Source: Epinephelus fuscoguttatus
Lineage: Eukaryota > Chordata > Actinopteri > Perciformes > Serranidae
Assembly: GCF_011397635.1 (NCBI RefSeq)
Contig: NC_064758.1
Span: forward strand, 16,855,013 to 16,919,012
Direction: 5' to 3'
DNA length: 64,000 bases
This document shows, piece after piece, positions 22,201 through 33,798 of this stretch. The position numbers and the translations under genes were made by a program. The first letter of the stretch is position 1; each line of letters begins with the position of its first letter. The notes under the pieces were generated by a model, which worked only from the letters and a program-made list of their open reading frames with translations, did not search any database and was not told the DNA's origin.

Positions 22201-23693
22201 GGAATTCATTTACTACTAATTGCACCATTACAAGCAGTTTGTCATGAGATATCAAGTGGCATTTGAGTTTTGATTAAATCACGATTGGCGTTCGGCTCTT
22301 CATCTCAACTGTCATCACCTCGTAGTTTTTGTTGATTAAAGGCCGTTCCGCAATTATTTCACCTTTTAAAGTGGGTGCACTAATTCAGGCTCTACAGTGG
22401 ATGAGCAGCTCGTCACTTTTGAAAATGAACAGAGGATTTTCAAATGGCTCTCTTCCCTCTGTTGTTGATGCTAATTGCACCGCTTTTATTTGTTTATTCA
22501 CACAGGGTATTTTTTCATCATAGACATAGTGTTAGTCACTCTCAATCTTTGTGCTCCCCTATTTTGTCCCATTCGATATTAACCACGCACACATTGTCAG
22601 TACCACTCACTCACCTGTCTGTCATGTCGTTGAGTGTACTTCCTGTTTACTGTACTAACAGTACAACAGCCTCTCCAATAGCTGCTCAGCTTTGAAGCAG
22701 AGAAAACACATCACTCAACAGTACTGCAGCGCCATATGCTGTACTCTTAGCATTCACCCTGTTCTGTTACGACTGTAAAAGATGAGCAGGACTTTAAGAG
22801 TCCTCGGGGCCCTTTAAGAAAATTTAAAGGTCCAGTGTGTAGGATTTAGGGGCATATACTGGCAAAAAAATGGAATATAATATAATATGTATGTTTTCTT
22901 TAGTGTGTAATCACCTATAAACAAGAATTGTAGTGTTTCTGTTACCTTAGAATGAGTTGTTTATATGTGCATACAGAGCAGGTCCTCACCCATGGAGTCT
23001 ACCATGTTGCACTGTCAATGCTGTAACTGCTTTATTAAGTGTTTTTACACTTTGTTTTGGAGAGGAAGAGGTCTCTGTGTGTAATACAGCTCCAGGTAAA
23101 AACTTCCTGGACATATAGATCTAACATTTTTTAGTGAAAAAGATGAGCACACATTAAGAGGTCCTGGGTTAGTGGCCTGTCTGCGACCAGCCAAACTCTG
23201 TTGATAATTTGGCTCCTGGTAAAAATATCCAGAACAATCAACACTGAAGGAATACTAACTGGGAGTTCACACTCATAGAAGTTTCAGCTGGTTGCAATCT
23301 GCAATCCTCACCACTAGATGTCACTAAAGACTACACACTGTTCCAGGAACATCTTTCTACCTGTATCTGACAAATGTTTAAGCTGAAATAAAAAGCAATC
23401 TGTTTATTTCCCCGCTGTGGGACAAATTAAGGATTATCTTATCTTAAGTTGATGTAATTTTTTTTAAGGTGTCGTGTGGCGGATGCTCTGTAACCACTGA
23501 GCTGTGCTTACCTCCCGACAAGACTCTGCAGACACAACTAACATCTCTCTGTCTCTCTCTCTGTGCAGTAATAGACGTGCAGGCGTTTGAGCGCCTCCTG
23601 GGTTCTTGTAAGGAGATCATGAAGAGGAACATCGCCCACTATGAAGAGCAGCTGGTGGCCCTGTTCGGCTCCAGCATGGACCTGAGAGACTGA
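8477..23693 (+). CDS. prkar2a: cAMP-dependent protein kinase type II regulatory subunit (3' nine coding exons; 5' part outside window)
   Basis: Regulatory subunit of PKA: it holds the catalytic subunit inactive until cAMP binds. Exons: 8477-8512, 13956-14092, 15821-15927, 19097-19238, 19650-19751, 20266-20340, 20449-20514, 21680-21818 and 23569-23693 (stop TGA 23691-23693). All junctions are GT-AG and the phases join without a break (929 nt). The first exon carries the autoinhibitory/autophosphorylation site ([12 protein letters not shown] type with Ser, then [14 protein letters not shown]). Two cyclic-nucleotide-binding domains follow, each with its phosphate-binding cassette: [16 protein letters not shown] (exon at 19097) and [17 protein letters not shown] (exon at 21680). 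Both cassettes keep the Glu and Arg that contact cAMP. The protein ends [24 protein letters not shown]. The N-terminal dimerisation/AKAP-docking exon was not found in 1-8476 and should lie upstream. Residues are a mixture of RII-alpha-like and RII-beta-like; the alpha call rests on synteny with naa80, hyal3 and amt. Confidence 0.93.
8518..8573 (+). repeat. (TG)n microsatellite abutting a 5' splice site
   Basis: About 28 uninterrupted TG units begin six bases into the intron, immediately after the donor AG|GTAAGG of the 36-nt prkar2a exon. Confidence 0.98.
9369..9409 (+). repeat. (TG)n microsatellite
   Basis: About 20 TG units in the same prkar2a intron; it produces spurious VCVCVC / THTHTH open frames. 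Confidence 0.97.
9775..10135. mobile_element. probable decayed hAT-like non-autonomous element
   Basis: Starts with GGGGTGTGACAGG and has palindromic ATCGAT-rich subterminal sequence (TTAATCATCGATGC), followed by a segment (CTTCCTAAACATTCAAACAG) of a type repeated across fish genomes. The far end near 10130 (GCGAATCTTAGATTG) is consistent with a decayed hAT terminus. Target duplication not identified. Confidence 0.35.
13189..13274 (+). repeat. (TG)36 plus (GC)n alternating purine-pyrimidine tract
   Basis: About 72 nt of uninterrupted TG run directly into GCGCGCGCGCGCACGC, giving some 85 nt of strictly alternating purine/pyrimidine. Confidence 0.97.
14093..19096 (+). other. prkar2a introns around the 15821-15927 exon
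   Basis: Two introns flank the exon that encodes the first half of cAMP domain A ([11 protein letters not shown]...[17 protein letters not shown]). They hold AT-rich sequence, a polypyrimidine run near 15640, and a (GGGA)n tract at 18607-18638. Nothing resembling a further gene was seen; open frames here are short and lack family resemblance. Confidence 0.5.
18607..18638 (+). repeat. (GGGA)n tract, G-quadruplex capable
   Basis: Seven successive GGGA/GGAG units on the coding strand of the prkar2a intron. There are more than four G3 runs with single-base loops. Confidence 0.95.
20573..21288. mobile_element. TTAA-flanked MITE (family A), degenerate copy
   Basis: Lies between the prkar2a exons at 20449 and 21680. 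It is bounded by TTAA on both sides (20569-20572 and 21289-21292). The left end is AGGAGACCTATTGTATG; the right end (GCATAACAGGACCAT) is its imperfect inverted complement. An internal segment GCATGTAAACATGTTGTAGT is the reverse complement of a segment in the copy at 36998-37566, so the two are related. No transposase was seen. TTAA flanks suggest a piggyBac-like mobilising source (inference). Confidence 0.75.
22828..23345. mobile_element. TTAA-associated MITE (family B)
   Basis: Located in the last prkar2a intron. Begins AGGTCCAGTGTGTAGGATTT after a TTAA (22824-22827) and ends near CACTAAAGACTACACACTG, its imperfect inverted complement; the right TTAA is lost. The same family occurs nested at 30659-32105 and as the outer layer of the duplicated block (43078 to about 47875). 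This is a common multicopy element of percomorph fish (recognised from memory). Confidence 0.75.
23400..23456 (+). repeat. LINE 3' tail fragment
   Basis: CCCCGCTGTGGGACAAATTA followed by AGGATTATCTTATCTTAAG is the typical 3' end of a teleost L2-type LINE with ATCTT repeats. It lies just upstream of the last prkar2a exon. Only the tail is present. Confidence 0.5.
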
Positions 23694-26559: not shown

Positions 26560-26653
26560 GTGCCCAAAGCTGACCACAGATCAGCTGTCAGCGTACCACG
26601 CATGCGCACTCTGAAGAAGACGAGCACCGGCGACGAGCCGCGAGACTAAAGAT
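26560..26653 (+). promoter_or_regulatory. naa80 promoter / first exon with NRF1 site
   Basis: A local CpG-rich patch with a palindromic NRF1 core CGCATGCGCA at 26599-26608, followed by GAAGAAGACGAGCACCGGCG and a short exon ending at GT donors (GTAGGT at 26654, GTAACG at 26658). NRF1 sites are typical of TATA-less housekeeping promoters. The start site is not defined by the sequence alone. Confidence 0.5.
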
Positions 26654-29600
26654 GTAGGTAACGTTACAGTGTGGTGTGAAACAAGAATGTAGACTTTTGT
26701 TGGCAGTTGAACAGTAAACTTGTAGTTCCTCATGGTATTTAACAAATGACACTGCACTGCATGTACTGCTAAAGCTGAGAGTAAGCTAATGAGCTAGCTA
26801 GCATGTAGCACTGACTTCCAAGTGTCAGTTTTGGAGTCTTACCTTACATGGAAGTGGATGCCAAGAAGAGAGGGGGGCTAATGGCTTATAAGGAGTGCCC
26901 AAAATACAGTTTATTTTCTTACCATGGCAAGCCCACAGGTCAAGACGTTACATGTGTTAAATGAAGTCTTTGGCTTATTATTTTTCCACATATAAAATTA
27001 TCAGGCTTTGTTTAATTCGTTTTTACGTTTGGACACAAACACAGGAGCACCTCCCCATGGCTGAGGCTATAGTATTTTATTATTGGGCGTATTATATTTT
27101 ATATAGCTGTGTGTCTTACTCACTTTTGAGTACCACATGCTTTTATTTTTCTGTCCAGTTTGCTCGAGAGAGTTTCCAAAGATTTTTTGGATCAAGAGCA
27201 AAACTGATAAATGATCTCCCGTTTTTACGCATGGATATGACGACAAAATATCTTTCTTTTTAAACAAAAAAGTAATAATTTGAGAACATGCTTTTAATGA
27301 GTCGAAAGAAAAGCATACAGTGTTTAGGGGAAATAAATGTTATTGTGTTGTCACTGAACATACTAGGGTTGAAAGTGAATTTTCGCCAAGCCGGAAGTGA
27401 AGGCGATTGCTGTGTTGGTACGTTTAATCTTTGAACTAATTAATGCGCCTGCGCACAGTTTTAGCGCTTCAACGGAAAAATAACGCTATCCTTTCCATTT
27501 AAGTACTTCGTATCCGTGCCTTGAGTTAAACACCACCCAATTATGATTTTTGTTCGTAAGACATAGCGTTTATTTTAACAGAACAGAACATGTTCAAAAA
27601 AAGAGGCGTGGCCGCGGTTGTGGAGTACCCACAATGCATAGCGTGCGTGTAGAATTTACCGTATATGTTAAAAGTAACGATTATTTAGTGTTTAAAACGT
27701 TGCATTGCGGTTCGTATATAATGTTAATACTTTATATTTCCGTCCGACACAATGTACAAAAAACGTGTAATATGAAACCATGAAACGTAACCGAGGTCGC
27801 TAGGGCGGTGAATGCAGCTCGAAACTTGGAAGACACACTGTAGTACACTCTTGTTTCTCTTCAGATCGTATAAATCTTTCGCCTTTTACTAAAGATTTCC
27901 GTGGAGAGGAACACTAAGAGTTTTAACTAATTTTTTGATGCCCTGCTAATGCGGGGCTTTCTAATTTGTTCAAAACAATTAATCATAATGAGGAAGGGTG
28001 TGTCAGGTATTACTGATAATGCCCTCTGATCTGTGGCGGTGTTGGTGGGATGAGAATGGCTCAGAGCCTCGTACATATTTTAGTTAATCACACATTCACA
28101 CAGTACAGAAATGTATTGTATGTCACTACACACATAAATTACTGATTTCAAACCAAGCAGTTTGTACAACATGACTTTCACGTTGTCATTCACAGTGATA
28201 TATATATCTGACTTAAATGTGTTCTTCAAACCATATAAGTCTAAAAATACTGTATGTTTTATTGAAATACTACATTATCTGATCTTTATATGAGCTTGCA
28301 AAAGATGACCGTGGTGCTGAAGGCTGTCATGACAAAGCTATCTGGAGACAACCACCACAAGCATTTTTGCATCAAAGAAGCATAATTTTTTAGGTCTGTT
28401 AGGCAGATAGTTTTTCTTGCTGTCTTCACAGTCAGTGCCTTGCTCAAGAGAACTCAAGGTTTTTTTTCTCCTCAGCAGACATTTTAACCCGTCATAATCC
28501 GCCTGTCTGATTATCAGTCAGCTGCTAGTTTCCTGTTGCATCTTTCTAACATCCTTTTTTGTGCATGCTGTGAGAATGTGAAATTGCGATGAGTAGACAG
28601 CGCCAAGGTCATAGCTGTTTGACAGGCAGGAGTTCGGCTTCAACTTTTTGCTCTTGGTGAGTTTGTATGTTTTTGTCGCTGTTTTTTTTTTTTCTTTGCT
28701 TGTTTTCATTTCTGTAATGTTTGCACAAAGTCTCGATCAGTGGACCACGGCCATGACCATTTATAAAAATGTATCTTTGCGCTGACGGACTCTTAAAATG
28801 GAGAAACTCCTCAGTGTTTCTTCACAGCTTTGACATGACCTCACCTCTGTGCCTCTGCCTTTGTGAGATTATTTTCATGTTTTTAACTTGTGAAAAAATT
28901 GCACCAATTGTACTTGTAAACAGTTATTGACGCCTTAGTGATGTATGATAGCATTAACTGTCACTATACAGCTATAACCTTGTAGACTCATGGCTGACTA
29001 TTGTGCTTTTGACATCATCATCTAATAATATGATATGAGACCATGGCACAGTATGGATCAGTCAGAGTTTACACGTCTGAGGAGCATTTTTATGTATTAA
29101 AATCAAGAAGATAAACATTAACAGAGCACAGAGTAATAATTTGCAAAAAAAAAGATAAAGCAACAGAAACCAGTATTTTTTGTGTCTTCACTGCATTGCA
29201 CTTCAGCCTTCTGAAGAAACTGTGTGGTAACGTGTGTCAGATAAAAGTCGACTTCCCCATTCAGACTGATGAGAAGGATGACAGCACTGAAACAAATGCA
29301 CACAAAGATCTGTGGGAGATACCAGTCGAACGACTACTGAAATACATAAAAAGAAGCGAGGGAAATTGTATATGAGTAGCCTACACTGAATGTTATAGTT
29401 TGAGAAATATCTCTTCAAGGGAAGAGTTTAAAAAGTCTCTCAGTGTTTTATGTTCACCACTCATGTTTAGGAAGGGTTCATTTTCACCATCCTTTCCTTA
29501 ATGCCAGACTTAAGCCTTCCATCCACAGTGAAATGCAGCTGAGTTCAGCCAGTGCTAACATGATGCTGCAGGGTTTATCATTGAAATACTGGTTAAAAAA

Positions 29601-30765: not shown

Positions 30766-33700
30766 TATATATATACGTTTTTGTGAGTTTATAATTACCT
30801 GAAAATAAAAATTGTTGTGTTTTAATCACATTAGAATGTGTTGTTTATATTTACAGACAAAGTGGGTCGTCTCCCACGGAGTCCATCATGTTGTTTCTAT
30901 AGTCGCCCAGAGCACAAATCACACTCTGGCTCTTCATAGGGCCATTTACATTTTTGTTTTTGTTTTTTTTCACATTTTTGCATCGGCCACCATAGTTCTC
31001 ATACATGCTTGTCACATGGGAGAAGTGTCAGTTCTGCAACCTCACCACTAGGTGTCACTAGGGATGGGTACCTTTCACATTTGAACCGATACGGTATCGA
31101 TACCCGGTACCCGGGAATCGATACCGGTACGCAACGGTACCTGTTTTCGGTACTTTTTTTGCATGTATGTGTGGTAATAAAGGATATTTCATTTAGAATT
31201 TTTTTTTTTTTTGGTCAAAACTAACATTTATTTCTCAATATCAAACAGGATAAAACAACATCTAACACTGTAACATAATATCAAAAGGTAGCCTATATAA
31301 TTGACTATGCAGCAGTTCTTTTTATTGCACAAAATGAACCCACTCCTACTACCTCCTATTCCTCCTCTTTCCCCTCTGGGAAAAATATGTGTGGGGGAGT
31401 GTAACGTTAAATTTAGAGAATACGAGGAACCGAGATAATAATAACTAAGGCAAGTTAAAATGCGAAGCTAACGTTAGAATGACCAGAACAAAGCCCAATC
31501 ATCTTAAACACTAAGCTTATTAATTACCTGGAACCAATGTAGCTGATGCCCCGCTTAATCACTGTCGTCATCATCGAACGTTAATCCCACTTCTTCTGCC
31601 CCGATGCTGGCTGCAGATGACAACGAGCCGCTAGCTGCAGGTGTGCTAACGCCGGGAGAAGTAGCCTTAACTTTCAGGCTATCAAATACTGTGGAGTCGT
31701 CAGCCTTTAAAAACACCTTGTGCTTGACCAGGTGCTTCCTCAGGTTTGAGGTATTTCCGTAGCTGGCCTTGTGTCGCAAATACTGCAGCGAGCGTAGTCT
31801 ACATCAAACTTTGAGATATGGAGCCACATCTTCAACCTCTTTCTCTCAGCCATGCTGCTTTGTTGATAGTTGCTACTGACGTGATCATGCTCTCGTGCGT
31901 ACAATGCTGCGTTCACGATAGGCAGCGAAAACGTCACTCCTCCACTCTCGAAGTCCCTAGGATGCGCTCAGGTACCGAAATGTGGTACCGTTTGATTTTA
32001 CGTGAATCGATACTCAGGATTACCGGCCGAATTCGGTCGGTACCAATAAAAGTACCGAACTCGGTACCCATCCCTAGGTGTCACTAAATCCTACGCACAG
32101 GACCTTTAACTGTTAGTCTAACAAAATGAGCAATCTGAAAATTGTGATAGGCATTTTTGGTACTATTTGTGACATTTTTGCGTACCAACCTATTAATAAC
32201 AATAATAATGAAAAAGAAACATCAGATTAATTGATAATGAAACTTATTGCTCTACTTTAAAGCTCTATTGCATGGTGACCTGAAGGTCAGAGAAGCACTT
32301 TTATGACTGAAGGTTGCTCTGTAGTTGCACTAGACCTGCACAGAGATAACTCTTCACTGAACCCTTACTCTGTGTCTGCCAATAACGTGTCCATGAGCAA
32401 GGCACATGACTCCCAACAGTGTAGCAGAAACAGGAGGACAGCAGAGGCTGCAGTGGAAACAGGGAGTATTAGAGGGAGATCAACACTCTAGTTTTATCCT
32501 CCTGCATGTGTCTCCTCTTACAGCAGTACTGAGCTAAAGACCTGTCAGTCTAACGCTGGTGTGCTGCCTTTAAGTTGATGAAAGTCTAGTTTATCTGGTT
32601 TTAGGGTGCATCTTTGATCAGTCAGACCTCCTCCAGACCTCTTCCTGGCTCAGACTACCTGTTGTGTAAAACAGACTGTGATGTGATCAGACTAACCACA
32701 CAATTGAGGAACTGCATGTTCAGAACATTTTCTAACATCTGTGTTTTTTACGCTTAGTCATAGGAGTTGATTGAAGACTGACTTTAGTTAAACCCTGATC
32801 ACCACAGGTCCGAACCATTATCAACGAATTCCAACCCGGAGAGCGGCAGCGAGCTAAACGTTGTCCTGCACCCCATCGCAACATCAGACTTTCAGACGAA
32901 ACATGTTGAGAAGGTTTGTGAGATCTCCAAAGTGGATGGAGCAGTTAAAGAGCAGCCTCACACTGACTCTGAGCAACGAGAGAAGATCCGTGCAGTTCCG
33001 ATCCACCGGCGTCCGGACCTGCTGGTTCCCTGCGCAGACCTGATCAACTCTGAGTGGCAGAGGAGTCAGGCCGCCCGGGTTCACTCCCTCAAGAAGTCCG
33101 GTCCAGAGTTCCCCGTCTGCCTCATTCTCCTGCAGGGCCACAGAGGGACAGAGCGTTTGCTTGGCCACGCCCGGCTCTCCCGGGTCGTAGGTCATGGCAG
33201 CAGCCTGTTTGTAGAGTCGGTGGTGGTGTCCAAGGCAGAGCGAGGTAAAGGCTATGGCCGGACTCTGATGGAGGAGACTGAGCGCTACGCCAGAAGCAGA
33301 GGGTTCAAGCGCCTTTGCCTGACAACCCATGATAAGCAGCACTTCTACGCCCACCTTGGCTACGTGCTGTCGACGCCGGTGCAGAACGCAGGCGCCATGA
33401 CGACGTTTGTTCCCATGGATATGCTGTTGAAGTTCTCGAGAATGCCAAGTGAAGAGGCGAACACACAGAAACAAACACAGACAAAGATGGCTGCTCAAGT
33501 ACCACAAGGAGGTGCTGGTTTTGTAGGGTCACCTCCACCTTCTAGTTTACCTCCTCCTCCGCCTCCACCTCCTCCTTCAATCCCTCCGCCACCACCACCT
33601 CCCTCCATCCCTCCTCCTCCGCCACCACCACCTCCCTCCATCCCTCCACCTCCCCCCCCACCACCTTCCTCCATCCCTCCTGCTGCTCCTCTTCCTCCTC

Positions 33701-33798
33701 CTCAGTCTGCAGAGCAGATTGTAGTTCAGACTCTGACTGAAACGCCCTACAGAGACGCCAGAGGACTTTCCATCTATTGGATGCACAAAGACATTTGA
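26652..33798 (+). CDS. naa80: N-alpha-acetyltransferase 80 (actin N-terminal acetyltransferase)
   Basis: NAA80 acetylates the processed acidic N-terminus of actins in the cytosol. Proposed join: 26652-26653 (AT) with 32808-33798 (993 nt, 330 residues). The large exon follows acceptor CACCACAG and is open in frame from its first base. The only AUG start found arises by joining AT to the exon's first G, giving MSEPLSTNSNPESG. The GNAT domain has the acetyl-CoA loop RGKGYG (VSKAERGKGYGRTLMEE, about residues 145-160), preceded by LLGHARLSRVVG and followed by LCLTTHDKQHFYAHLGY. A proline-rich insert (about 33526-33705: SLPPPPPPPPP, SIPPPPPPP repeats) fits the polyproline that recruits profilin-actin in this family. 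Ends MHKDI. The start is a model: no coding ATG exists in frame before the GNAT core, and GTG at 32932 is not a likely start. Confidence 0.88.
27627..27640 (+). promoter_or_regulatory. ZNF143/STAF-type distal element of the U5 gene
   Basis: ACCCACAATGCATA matches the SBS/STAF consensus (CCCANAATGC). It lies about 205-218 bp before the U5 start, the usual position of the distal sequence element in vertebrate snRNA genes. Confidence 0.6.
27655..27675 (+). promoter_or_regulatory. PSE-like motif, about 170-190 bp upstream of U5
   Basis: TTTACCGTATATGTTAAAAG(T) fits the vertebrate proximal sequence element (TYACCNTNA...AAAAG) well. It is too far from the U5 start for a standard PSE (about -55). 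A TATA-like TTTAAAA follows at 27691-27697. See findings. Confidence 0.4.
27788..27806 (+). promoter_or_regulatory. candidate proximal sequence element of the U5 gene
   Basis: TAACCGAGGTCGCTAGGGC begins 57 bp before the U5 start, the expected SNAPc position. The match to the PSE consensus is partial (the AACCG core). Confidence 0.35.
27845..27960 (+). ncRNA. U5 spliceosomal snRNA
   Basis: U5 snRNA aligns exon ends during both steps of splicing, as part of the U5 and U4/U6.U5 particles. The segment ATCGTATAAATCTTTCGCCT plus TTTACTAAAGATTTCCGTGG and AGAGGAAC matches vertebrate U5 base for base as recalled, including invariant loop I (GCCTTTTAC, 27891-27899). The 5' strand ACTCTT (27847-27852) pairs with AAGAGT (27916-27921). 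An Sm site AATTTTTTG (about 27929-27937) and a 3' hairpin follow (GCCCTGC, loop TAAT, GCGGGGC, ending 27957). A 3'-box-like sequence GTTCAAAACAATTAAT follows. Length is about 115 nt, as in the family. Intact pairing, Sm site and upstream elements argue against a pseudogene. It lies inside the proposed naa80 intron on the same strand. Confidence 0.93.
27968..27986 (+). terminator. snRNA 3' box-like element
   Basis: GTTCAAAACAATTAATC, about 8 bp after the U5 3' hairpin, resembles the 3' box (GTTTN0-3AAARRNNAGA) that directs Integrator processing of Pol II snRNAs. Confidence 0.5.
27987..30478 (+). other. naa80 intron sequence without recognised features
   Basis: AT-rich sequence between the U5 gene and the nested transposon cluster. 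No exon, RNA gene or clear repeat was recognised; the open frames are short and not protein-like. Confidence 0.45.
30718..30778. repeat. (AT)n microsatellite
   Basis: About 22 AT units followed by imperfect ATATTATATATATA, inside the family B MITE. Confidence 0.95.
31059..32076 (-). mobile_element. hAT element remnant with BED zinc-finger exon, inner layer of the nest
   Basis: Perfect 8-bp target duplications GGTGTCAC (31051-31058 and 32077-32084) flank terminal inverted repeats TAGGGATGGGTACC ... GGTACCCATCCCTA. Subterminal regions carry many GGTACC / CGATAC motifs, which may be transposase-binding repeats. The 1018-bp body keeps only a BED zinc-finger coding region on the minus strand; the RNase H-like transposase core is absent, so the copy is non-autonomous. 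Confidence 0.88.
31555..31937 (-). pseudogene. BED zinc-finger N-terminal region of a hAT transposase, frameshifted
   Basis: Two overlapping minus-strand frames together look like a BED finger. One (start 31937) has MAERKRLKMWLHISKFD then YARCSIC, which supplies the Cys pair. The other (ending 31555) has SYGNTSNLRKHLVKHK, which supplies the His pair, then an acidic tail DDDDSD and a stop. The frames are offset by one base near 31770, between the Cys and His pairs, so no single frame encodes the whole finger. BED fingers bind DNA in hAT transposases and ZBED proteins. Confidence 0.7.
32263..32807 (+). other. end of naa80 intron
   Basis: Unremarkable sequence between the nested elements and the naa80 acceptor (CACCACAG, ending 32807). 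No gene seen. Confidence 0.5.
33526..33705 (+). repeat. in-frame CCT/CCA repeat encoding polyproline in naa80
   Basis: Runs of CCT, CCA and CCC codons interrupted by TCC/TCT-ATC codons give blocks of 7-9 prolines separated by S-I or S-S-I. The periodic block structure (about 40-45 nt) suggests growth by slippage or unequal exchange. Two minus-strand frames (33542-33841 and 33577-33831) are only its shadow. Confidence 0.85.

Follow-up and report, generated by a model that had tools for sequence, protein, structure and literature searches.

The window analysed here is a 64 kb stretch of the Epinephelus fuscoguttatus genome (GCF_011397635.1), C7:16855013-16919012 on contig NC_064758.1. An intact U5 snRNA gene had been predicted from its sequence at 27845..27960, with an Infernal search against the Rfam U5 model as the suggested check. 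That search places the gene at 27845-27958 on the forward strand, covers model positions 1-117 of 117 (RF00020), and gives a score far above the cut-off (100.9 versus 40 bits, E 8.6e-17). At the gathering threshold, U5 is the sole Rfam match in the 64 kb, and a permissive scan of 27500-28300 added seven weak matches, each far under its own cut-off. Upstream lies the final coding exon of a gene for a PKA type II regulatory subunit, with an open frame that ends at 23693; downstream lie the main exon of naa80 and a hyaluronidase gene. In open-licence PubMed Central, no paper was found that names U5 snRNA together with naa80. The features of the locus are as follows (negative numbers are relative to the U5 start).

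27401..27800, no strand assigned: CpG-preserved stretch upstream of U5 (CpG o/e 1.82; whole window 0.37)
27625..27643 (-220 to -202), forward strand: putative distal sequence element (DSE) with ZNF143/STAF (SPH) motif GTACCCACAATGCATAGCG, from motif match and sharing with paralogues
27781..27814 (-64..-31), forward strand: PSE-like block, 23-24 of 34 positions identical to four C7 paralogues
27784-27796 (-61), forward strand: putative PSE core AACGTAACCGAGG, two substitutions from a U4-derived motif
27845..27958, forward strand: U5 snRNA, mature RNA region (full RF00020 model; fold z -5.66)
27847..27921, forward strand: outer stem, ACTC(TT) at 27847-27852 with (AA)GAGT at 27916-27921 (Rfam alignment, fold)
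27864..27871, forward strand: protein-docking internal loop (IL2 in human), 5' side, GATCGTAT (Rfam alignment)
27881..27889, forward strand: loop I, GCCTTTTAC, identical to the Rfam consensus and to four C7 paralogues
27929..27937, forward strand: Sm site AATTTTTTG (sequence, Rfam alignment)
27940..27957, forward strand: 3' hairpin GCCCTGC/GCGGGGC, 7 of 7 pairs
27968..27979, forward strand: 3'-box-like element GTTCAAAACAAT, two mismatches to the published consensus
32808..33798, forward strand: main coding exon of naa80, the possible host gene (PDB human NAA80, E 5.3e-48; Pfam acetyltransferase; start predicted from a splice model)

No ATG precedes the conserved domain in the open frame of the main naa80 exon, which makes an upstream exon likely. 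When a donor at 26654 is joined to the acceptor at 32808, an in-frame ATG is read across the junction (MSEPLSTNSNP), and the U5 gene is placed inside a 6.2 kb intron on the same strand. The donor lies about 50 bases past GCATGCGC at 26600, upstream of U5, which we take to be an NRF1-like site and which is the only exact one in the window. An intronic position of U5 is possible under this splice model. The alternative is a real U5 gene that lies in the intergenic region separating naa80 from the PKA regulatory subunit gene. It was raised because, among 53 candidate donors scoring above 4 with a splice matrix, 20 provide an in-frame start and 14 of these 20 lie downstream of U5. The missing ATG of the main exon, the NRF1-like site and the reading MSEPLSTNSNP speak against it, and we give it a little under an even chance. 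If naa80 transcription crosses the U5 gene, the 3' box should be ignored, since a 3' box is described as working only with an snRNA promoter (in a passage of PMC5493778).

The transcript is predicted to take the U5 structure, with a folding energy of -37.6 kcal/mol, compared to -20.5 +/- 3.0 kcal/mol for 200 shuffled sequences, none of which folded as well. The conserved loop I is present, and the inner, protein-docking loop, the 3' side of which is CCG at 27899-27901, agrees well with the Rfam consensus. Its yeast counterpart is described as the docking site of Prp8, Snu114 and Brr2 (PMC4065371, in part). The intact Sm site noted earlier was found and is followed by the 3' hairpin, the two arms of which pair throughout as foreseen. 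For the outer stem, full pairing of ACTCTT with AAGAGT had been predicted. Such pairing is possible by sequence, but the computed fold keeps five pairs and the sixth U takes another A. Complete pairing would shut the outer internal loop, a loop left open by the Rfam consensus. The window copy and its four C7 paralogues lack the Rfam-type loop with UG opposite six bases and carry UU instead (UU/ACUAA), with the opposite side one base shorter; the loop can pair shut because of these two changes. U5 copies of a tandem array elsewhere in the genome have UG at this place, as in the consensus. The outer internal loop is treated here as a variant position that does not decide membership in the U5 family. 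Compared to Rfam U5 genes with a vertebrate-type promoter, the window copy is thus alike in its full-length match, loop I, protein-docking loop, Sm site and 3' hairpin and differs in an outer loop that can close; like vertebrate-type snRNA promoters, its flanks also have a STAF site, a PSE-like block and a candidate 3'-box-like element.

To place the window copy among the U5 genes of its own genome (1.047 Gb, 26 contigs), a family search was performed. It scored 46 of 67119 candidates, and copy counts are therefore lower bounds. At least 25 U5 matches were obtained, all above the cut-off, and the window copy scores best among them. An exact search for the U5 core in the collections viral_contigs and genome_contigs gave no match in either. 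The matches fall into three groups, located on C7 (5), in an array on C15 (19) and on C11 (1). The C7 type comprises the window copy (L001) and four paralogues (L002-L005) at C7:17.849-17.854 Mb, 0.97 Mb away, which lie on one strand with irregular spacing. Their transcripts are identical to the window U5 at 112 (L002), 113 (L003), 111 (L004) and 112 (L005) of 114 positions. The T at 27950 is a mark of the window copy; the other four have C. About 2.2 kb beyond the last U5 of this cluster there is an open frame of 680 codons (L027:2781-4823) that by eye resembles a ZBED or hAT-derived gene.

The second U5 type is clearly unlike the C7 type and forms a tandem array of at least 19 copies at C15:5.27-5.29 Mb. 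In the three of the 19 loci that were scanned with Rfam (L007, L010, L020), U2 alternates with U5 on the same strand. U2-U5 linkage is described as the usual arrangement among the fish studied (PMC3464664), and the present genome has such an array with its own U5 type. The window copy, in contrast, lies outside the C15 array, has no U2 within the 64 kb and differs from the array copies in transcript and promoter. The loop I region is altered in 6 of the 19 array copies (L020-L025), some of which lack one base, and the array seems to contain damaged U5 copies among intact ones. The single C11 copy (L018, C11:26848642-26848758) is of the array type, with unrelated flanks and none of the promoter blocks shared on C7. 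Within a few bases downstream follows what we take to be the head of a tRNA-derived SINE. This copy is likely a chimeric retrocopy of an array-type U5.

A structure alignment was built from 13 of the 25 copies (L001-L005, L018, L006, L007, L011, L013, L015, L016 and L019); L017, five array copies that were identical and the six with an altered loop I were left aside. In this alignment 98.3% of the cells pair. At two pairs both partners differ between the types: the C7 type has C-G in place of U-A at one and A-U in place of G-C at the other. Each of these changes counts as one event since it is common to all five C7 copies. The number of cells with changes on both sides is 10, above all 500 shuffles, and there are none in slid versions of the alignment; the number of such pairs (2) was equalled by 447 of 500 shuffles, so only the cell count and the scores stand out. 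Several U5 isoforms per genome are also described for human, mouse and Drosophila (passages of PMC4291461 and PMC5493778). The likeness to these variants lies in isoform number; the U5 types of the present genome are also distinct in the sequence of their promoters and in CpG content.

The comparison with other U5 loci of the same genome, suggested along with the original prediction, revealed promoter blocks in common with all four C7 paralogues. A STAF motif had been noted near -215. The site found at -220 to -202 has one mismatch to an 18-base form of the motif (0.18 expected per window) and two mismatches to the published 19-base consensus. The surrounding region of the window copy, -260..-171, matches L003, L004 and L005 (0 of 500 shuffles as good in each case), and the motif itself lies at -220 in the window copy and at -227, -220 and -227 in these three paralogues. 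L002 shows no match at -260..-171 (215 of 500 shuffles as good); its stretch -440..-350 gives the highest-scoring match to the STAF block of the window copy (48, with none of 500 plain shuffles as good) and has a STAF-like site at -398. Judged from sequence, the DSE of L002 is present, displaced to about -398, and a block with a STAF site, near -220 in the window copy, is thereby common to all four C7 paralogues. An octamer was not found within -450 of the window U5 at up to one mismatch, and an octamer-type DSE was rejected.

Outside these blocks the upstream regions are largely unrelated. Over -300..-101, identity of the window copy to the C7 paralogues is 0.49-0.56, compared to 0.47-0.53 for the array copies, L018 and U4 loci. 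Between the DSE and PSE blocks the window copy is unlike its paralogues (264-357 of 500 shuffles as good). The paralogues themselves are 0.83-0.94 alike upstream (L003-L005) and 0.85-0.97 alike in the proximal 100 bases (L002-L005); they are not independent of each other, and the shared blocks may therefore count as one event.

The PSE-like block at -64..-31 is identical to L002, L003, L004 and L005 at 24, 23, 23 and 24 of 34 positions, one base away, and 0, 7, 0 and 0 of 2500 other positions match as well. It is common to all four paralogues and to two of five U4 genes clustered on C4. For the whole of -80..-1, 23-38 of 500 shuffles gave a local alignment as good. The human PSE consensus (as given in the part of PMC5493778 consulted) fits the window U5 poorly and was dropped as a yardstick; the PSE was for this reason compared with the U4 promoters of the same genome. 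The motif used, ACC[CG]TAAC[AT]GAGG, was derived from the C4 U4 copies on which it is scored: it is exact in three of the five, with one difference in a fourth and four in the fifth, and lies at -58 to -59 there. The core of the window copy is at most three bases from that position and two substitutions from the motif, a closeness that 13 places in the 64 kb, both strands counted, also reach. The cores of L002, L003, L004 and L005 have 3, 3, 4 and 3 differences; these four copies read CTGAGTGAGG or near it where the window copy has GTAACCGAGG. When the PSE stretch was aligned with individual U4 genes, 0 of 528 other positions were as good for L029 and 8 for L032. The matches to L028, L030 and L031 were not outstanding (357, 84 and 103 of 528), nor were those to the four tandem U4 copies. 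The element of the window copy is probably, by sequence, a PSE of a form used in its own genome.

On the 3' side, the anticipated 3'-box-like element begins at the 10th base beyond the Rfam end. L002-L005 have similar elements at about the same place with 1-3 mismatches, and local alignment of this stretch with the paralogues was equalled by 8-81 of 500 shuffles.

The 400 bases 5' of the window U5 are the most CpG-preserved part of the 64 kb. The CpG o/e of -400..-1 is 1.67, a value reached by one of 1272 windows compared, which itself overlaps that stretch. The corresponding ratios are 0.90-1.06 for the four C7 paralogues, 0.27-0.42 for the 19 array copies and 0.65 for L018. The high ratio may reflect a promoter that is unmethylated in the germ line. 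The only forward CCGGAAG of the window, presumably an ETS-like site, lies upstream of U5 at 27391, at the edge of this stretch. Another promoter may contribute for this reason, and the CpG-rich stretch could belong to that promoter.

U5 is one of the central RNAs of the splicing machinery. On the basis of its sequence elements and paralogy, the window copy is very probably a functional U5 gene of the RNA polymerase II snRNA class. Expression, factor binding and use in splicing would then follow what is known of vertebrate snRNA genes. The PSE at about -61 would be the binding site of SNAPc, and the element at -220 that of ZNF143/STAF. After cleavage near the 3' box, the RNA would receive its Sm proteins at AAUUUUUUG and join the U5 snRNP, the loop I of which would contact exons during splicing, as is described for U5 (PMC7876476, in part). 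The five C7-type genes would have arisen by DNA duplication that brought the promoter along.

A silent duplicate without a role of its own, kept similar by gene conversion from the cluster 0.97 Mb away, would also account for five near-identical transcripts on one contig, for which gene conversion could be an alternative source, and for the PSE core that is unlike those of the other four copies. The DSE and PSE blocks have persisted, however, with the stretch between them diverged to background, the deviating core has fewer differences from the U4 motif than the other four cores have, and the upstream region is unusually CpG-rich, which makes this explanation improbable. A processed retro-pseudogene that looks intact by chance, for which one could cite the near-identical transcript with mostly unrelated flanks and the example of the array-type copy on C11, was rejected as most improbable given the STAF and PSE-like blocks outside the transcript shared with the C7 paralogues and the CpG-preserved upstream region. 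The preferred reading, a real gene with its own promoter, was also that of the original prediction and is supported by the covariance score, the shared promoter blocks and the preserved CpGs. Taken singly, the window U5 is an ordinary gene that, as far as its sequence tells, probably works. It matters as a member of a five-gene U5 type, the proximal promoter of which is similar to that of one U4 type but not to those of the tandem types.

U4 also occurs in two types, an irregular cluster of at least five copies on C4 (L028-L032) and a regular tandem array of at least four on C14 (L033-L036) with a period of about 1.07 kb. Two additional matches were under the cut-off. Copy numbers are again lower bounds, since 41 of 71161 candidates were scored for U4 (48 of 102771 in another family search). 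The CpG o/e of the upstream 400 bases is 1.13, 1.23, 0.40, 0.93 and 0.67 in the clustered U4 copies and 0.17-0.26 in the tandem ones. This sign is weaker than for U5 because the far upstream stretch of several C4 copies is likewise CpG-rich. A STAF-like site was found in one of the five clustered U4 genes (L028), with three mismatches.

Similarity of the PSE region (-75..-31) between U4 and U5 was found within type only. At a level of at most 25 of 500 shuffles, 4 of 25 pairs of clustered U4 and clustered U5 match, as do all four pairs of tandem U4 and tandem U5 (from two of the four U4 and two of the 19 U5 copies) and 0 of 20 pairs across types; copies inside one type are not independent in these counts. 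The local match of the tandem promoters is 13 bases out of register (-45 and -58), and an ungapped 18-base match with 14 identities lies at -60 and -64, with 1 of 2760 other places as good. For the array U2 promoters, none of 4 pairs with tandem U4 or U5 matched; with clustered U5 there was a weak match in 3 of 5 pairs, owing to an 8-base word.

A preprint by Pagano et al. reportedly describes maternal and somatic snRNA sets in zebrafish. The two U4 and U5 types hint, by analogy, at parallel snRNA gene sets as in that fish, where there are likewise two sequence types per snRNA in one genome (maternal and somatic types, as described in part of PMC11075544). Developmental isoform switching is also described in Drosophila and mouse (a passage of PMC4291461). 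Tentatively, the present genome may thus have two separately regulated snRNA gene sets, each with its own PSE form and life stage, which would provide two kinds of spliceosome with a class-specific PSE as the switch. The first set would consist of irregular clusters with CpG-rich promoters in most copies (U5 on C7, including the window copy, and U4 on C4), and the second of tandem arrays whose promoters are poor in CpG and have a different PSE form (U2-U5 on C15, U4 on C14 and perhaps U6 on C11). We lean against this scheme, since the U2 genes of the array are at odds with it, CpG is low in one clustered U4 copy and a good STAF site is missing from the clustered U4 genes. The class-specific PSE could be the part that is new. 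If the likeness of proximal promoters within a type extends to all snRNAs, the PSE form would offer a simple and testable explanation of a maternal/somatic spliceosome switch in an animal.

The two U4 types also differ within the transcript. The tandem copies read CCTTTCGCAG (one of them CCTTCCGCAG) where the clustered copies have CTTTGCGCAG, and this stretch is presumably the one that pairs with U6. A co-adapted U6 partner for the tandem-type U4 was considered and dropped. Among at least 23 U6 matches, the form CTGCGAAAGC occurs only in L054 and L055, which are solitary and retrocopy-like, and a count of U4/U6 pairs by hand gave 11 of 12 in each of the three combinations. In these two U6 copies, located on C17 and C9, respectively, and both above the cut-off, CTGCGAAAGC replaces CTGCGCAAGG. 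In the U6 array on C11, the copies carry either the usual form or CTGCGCAAGT, plus one further variant.
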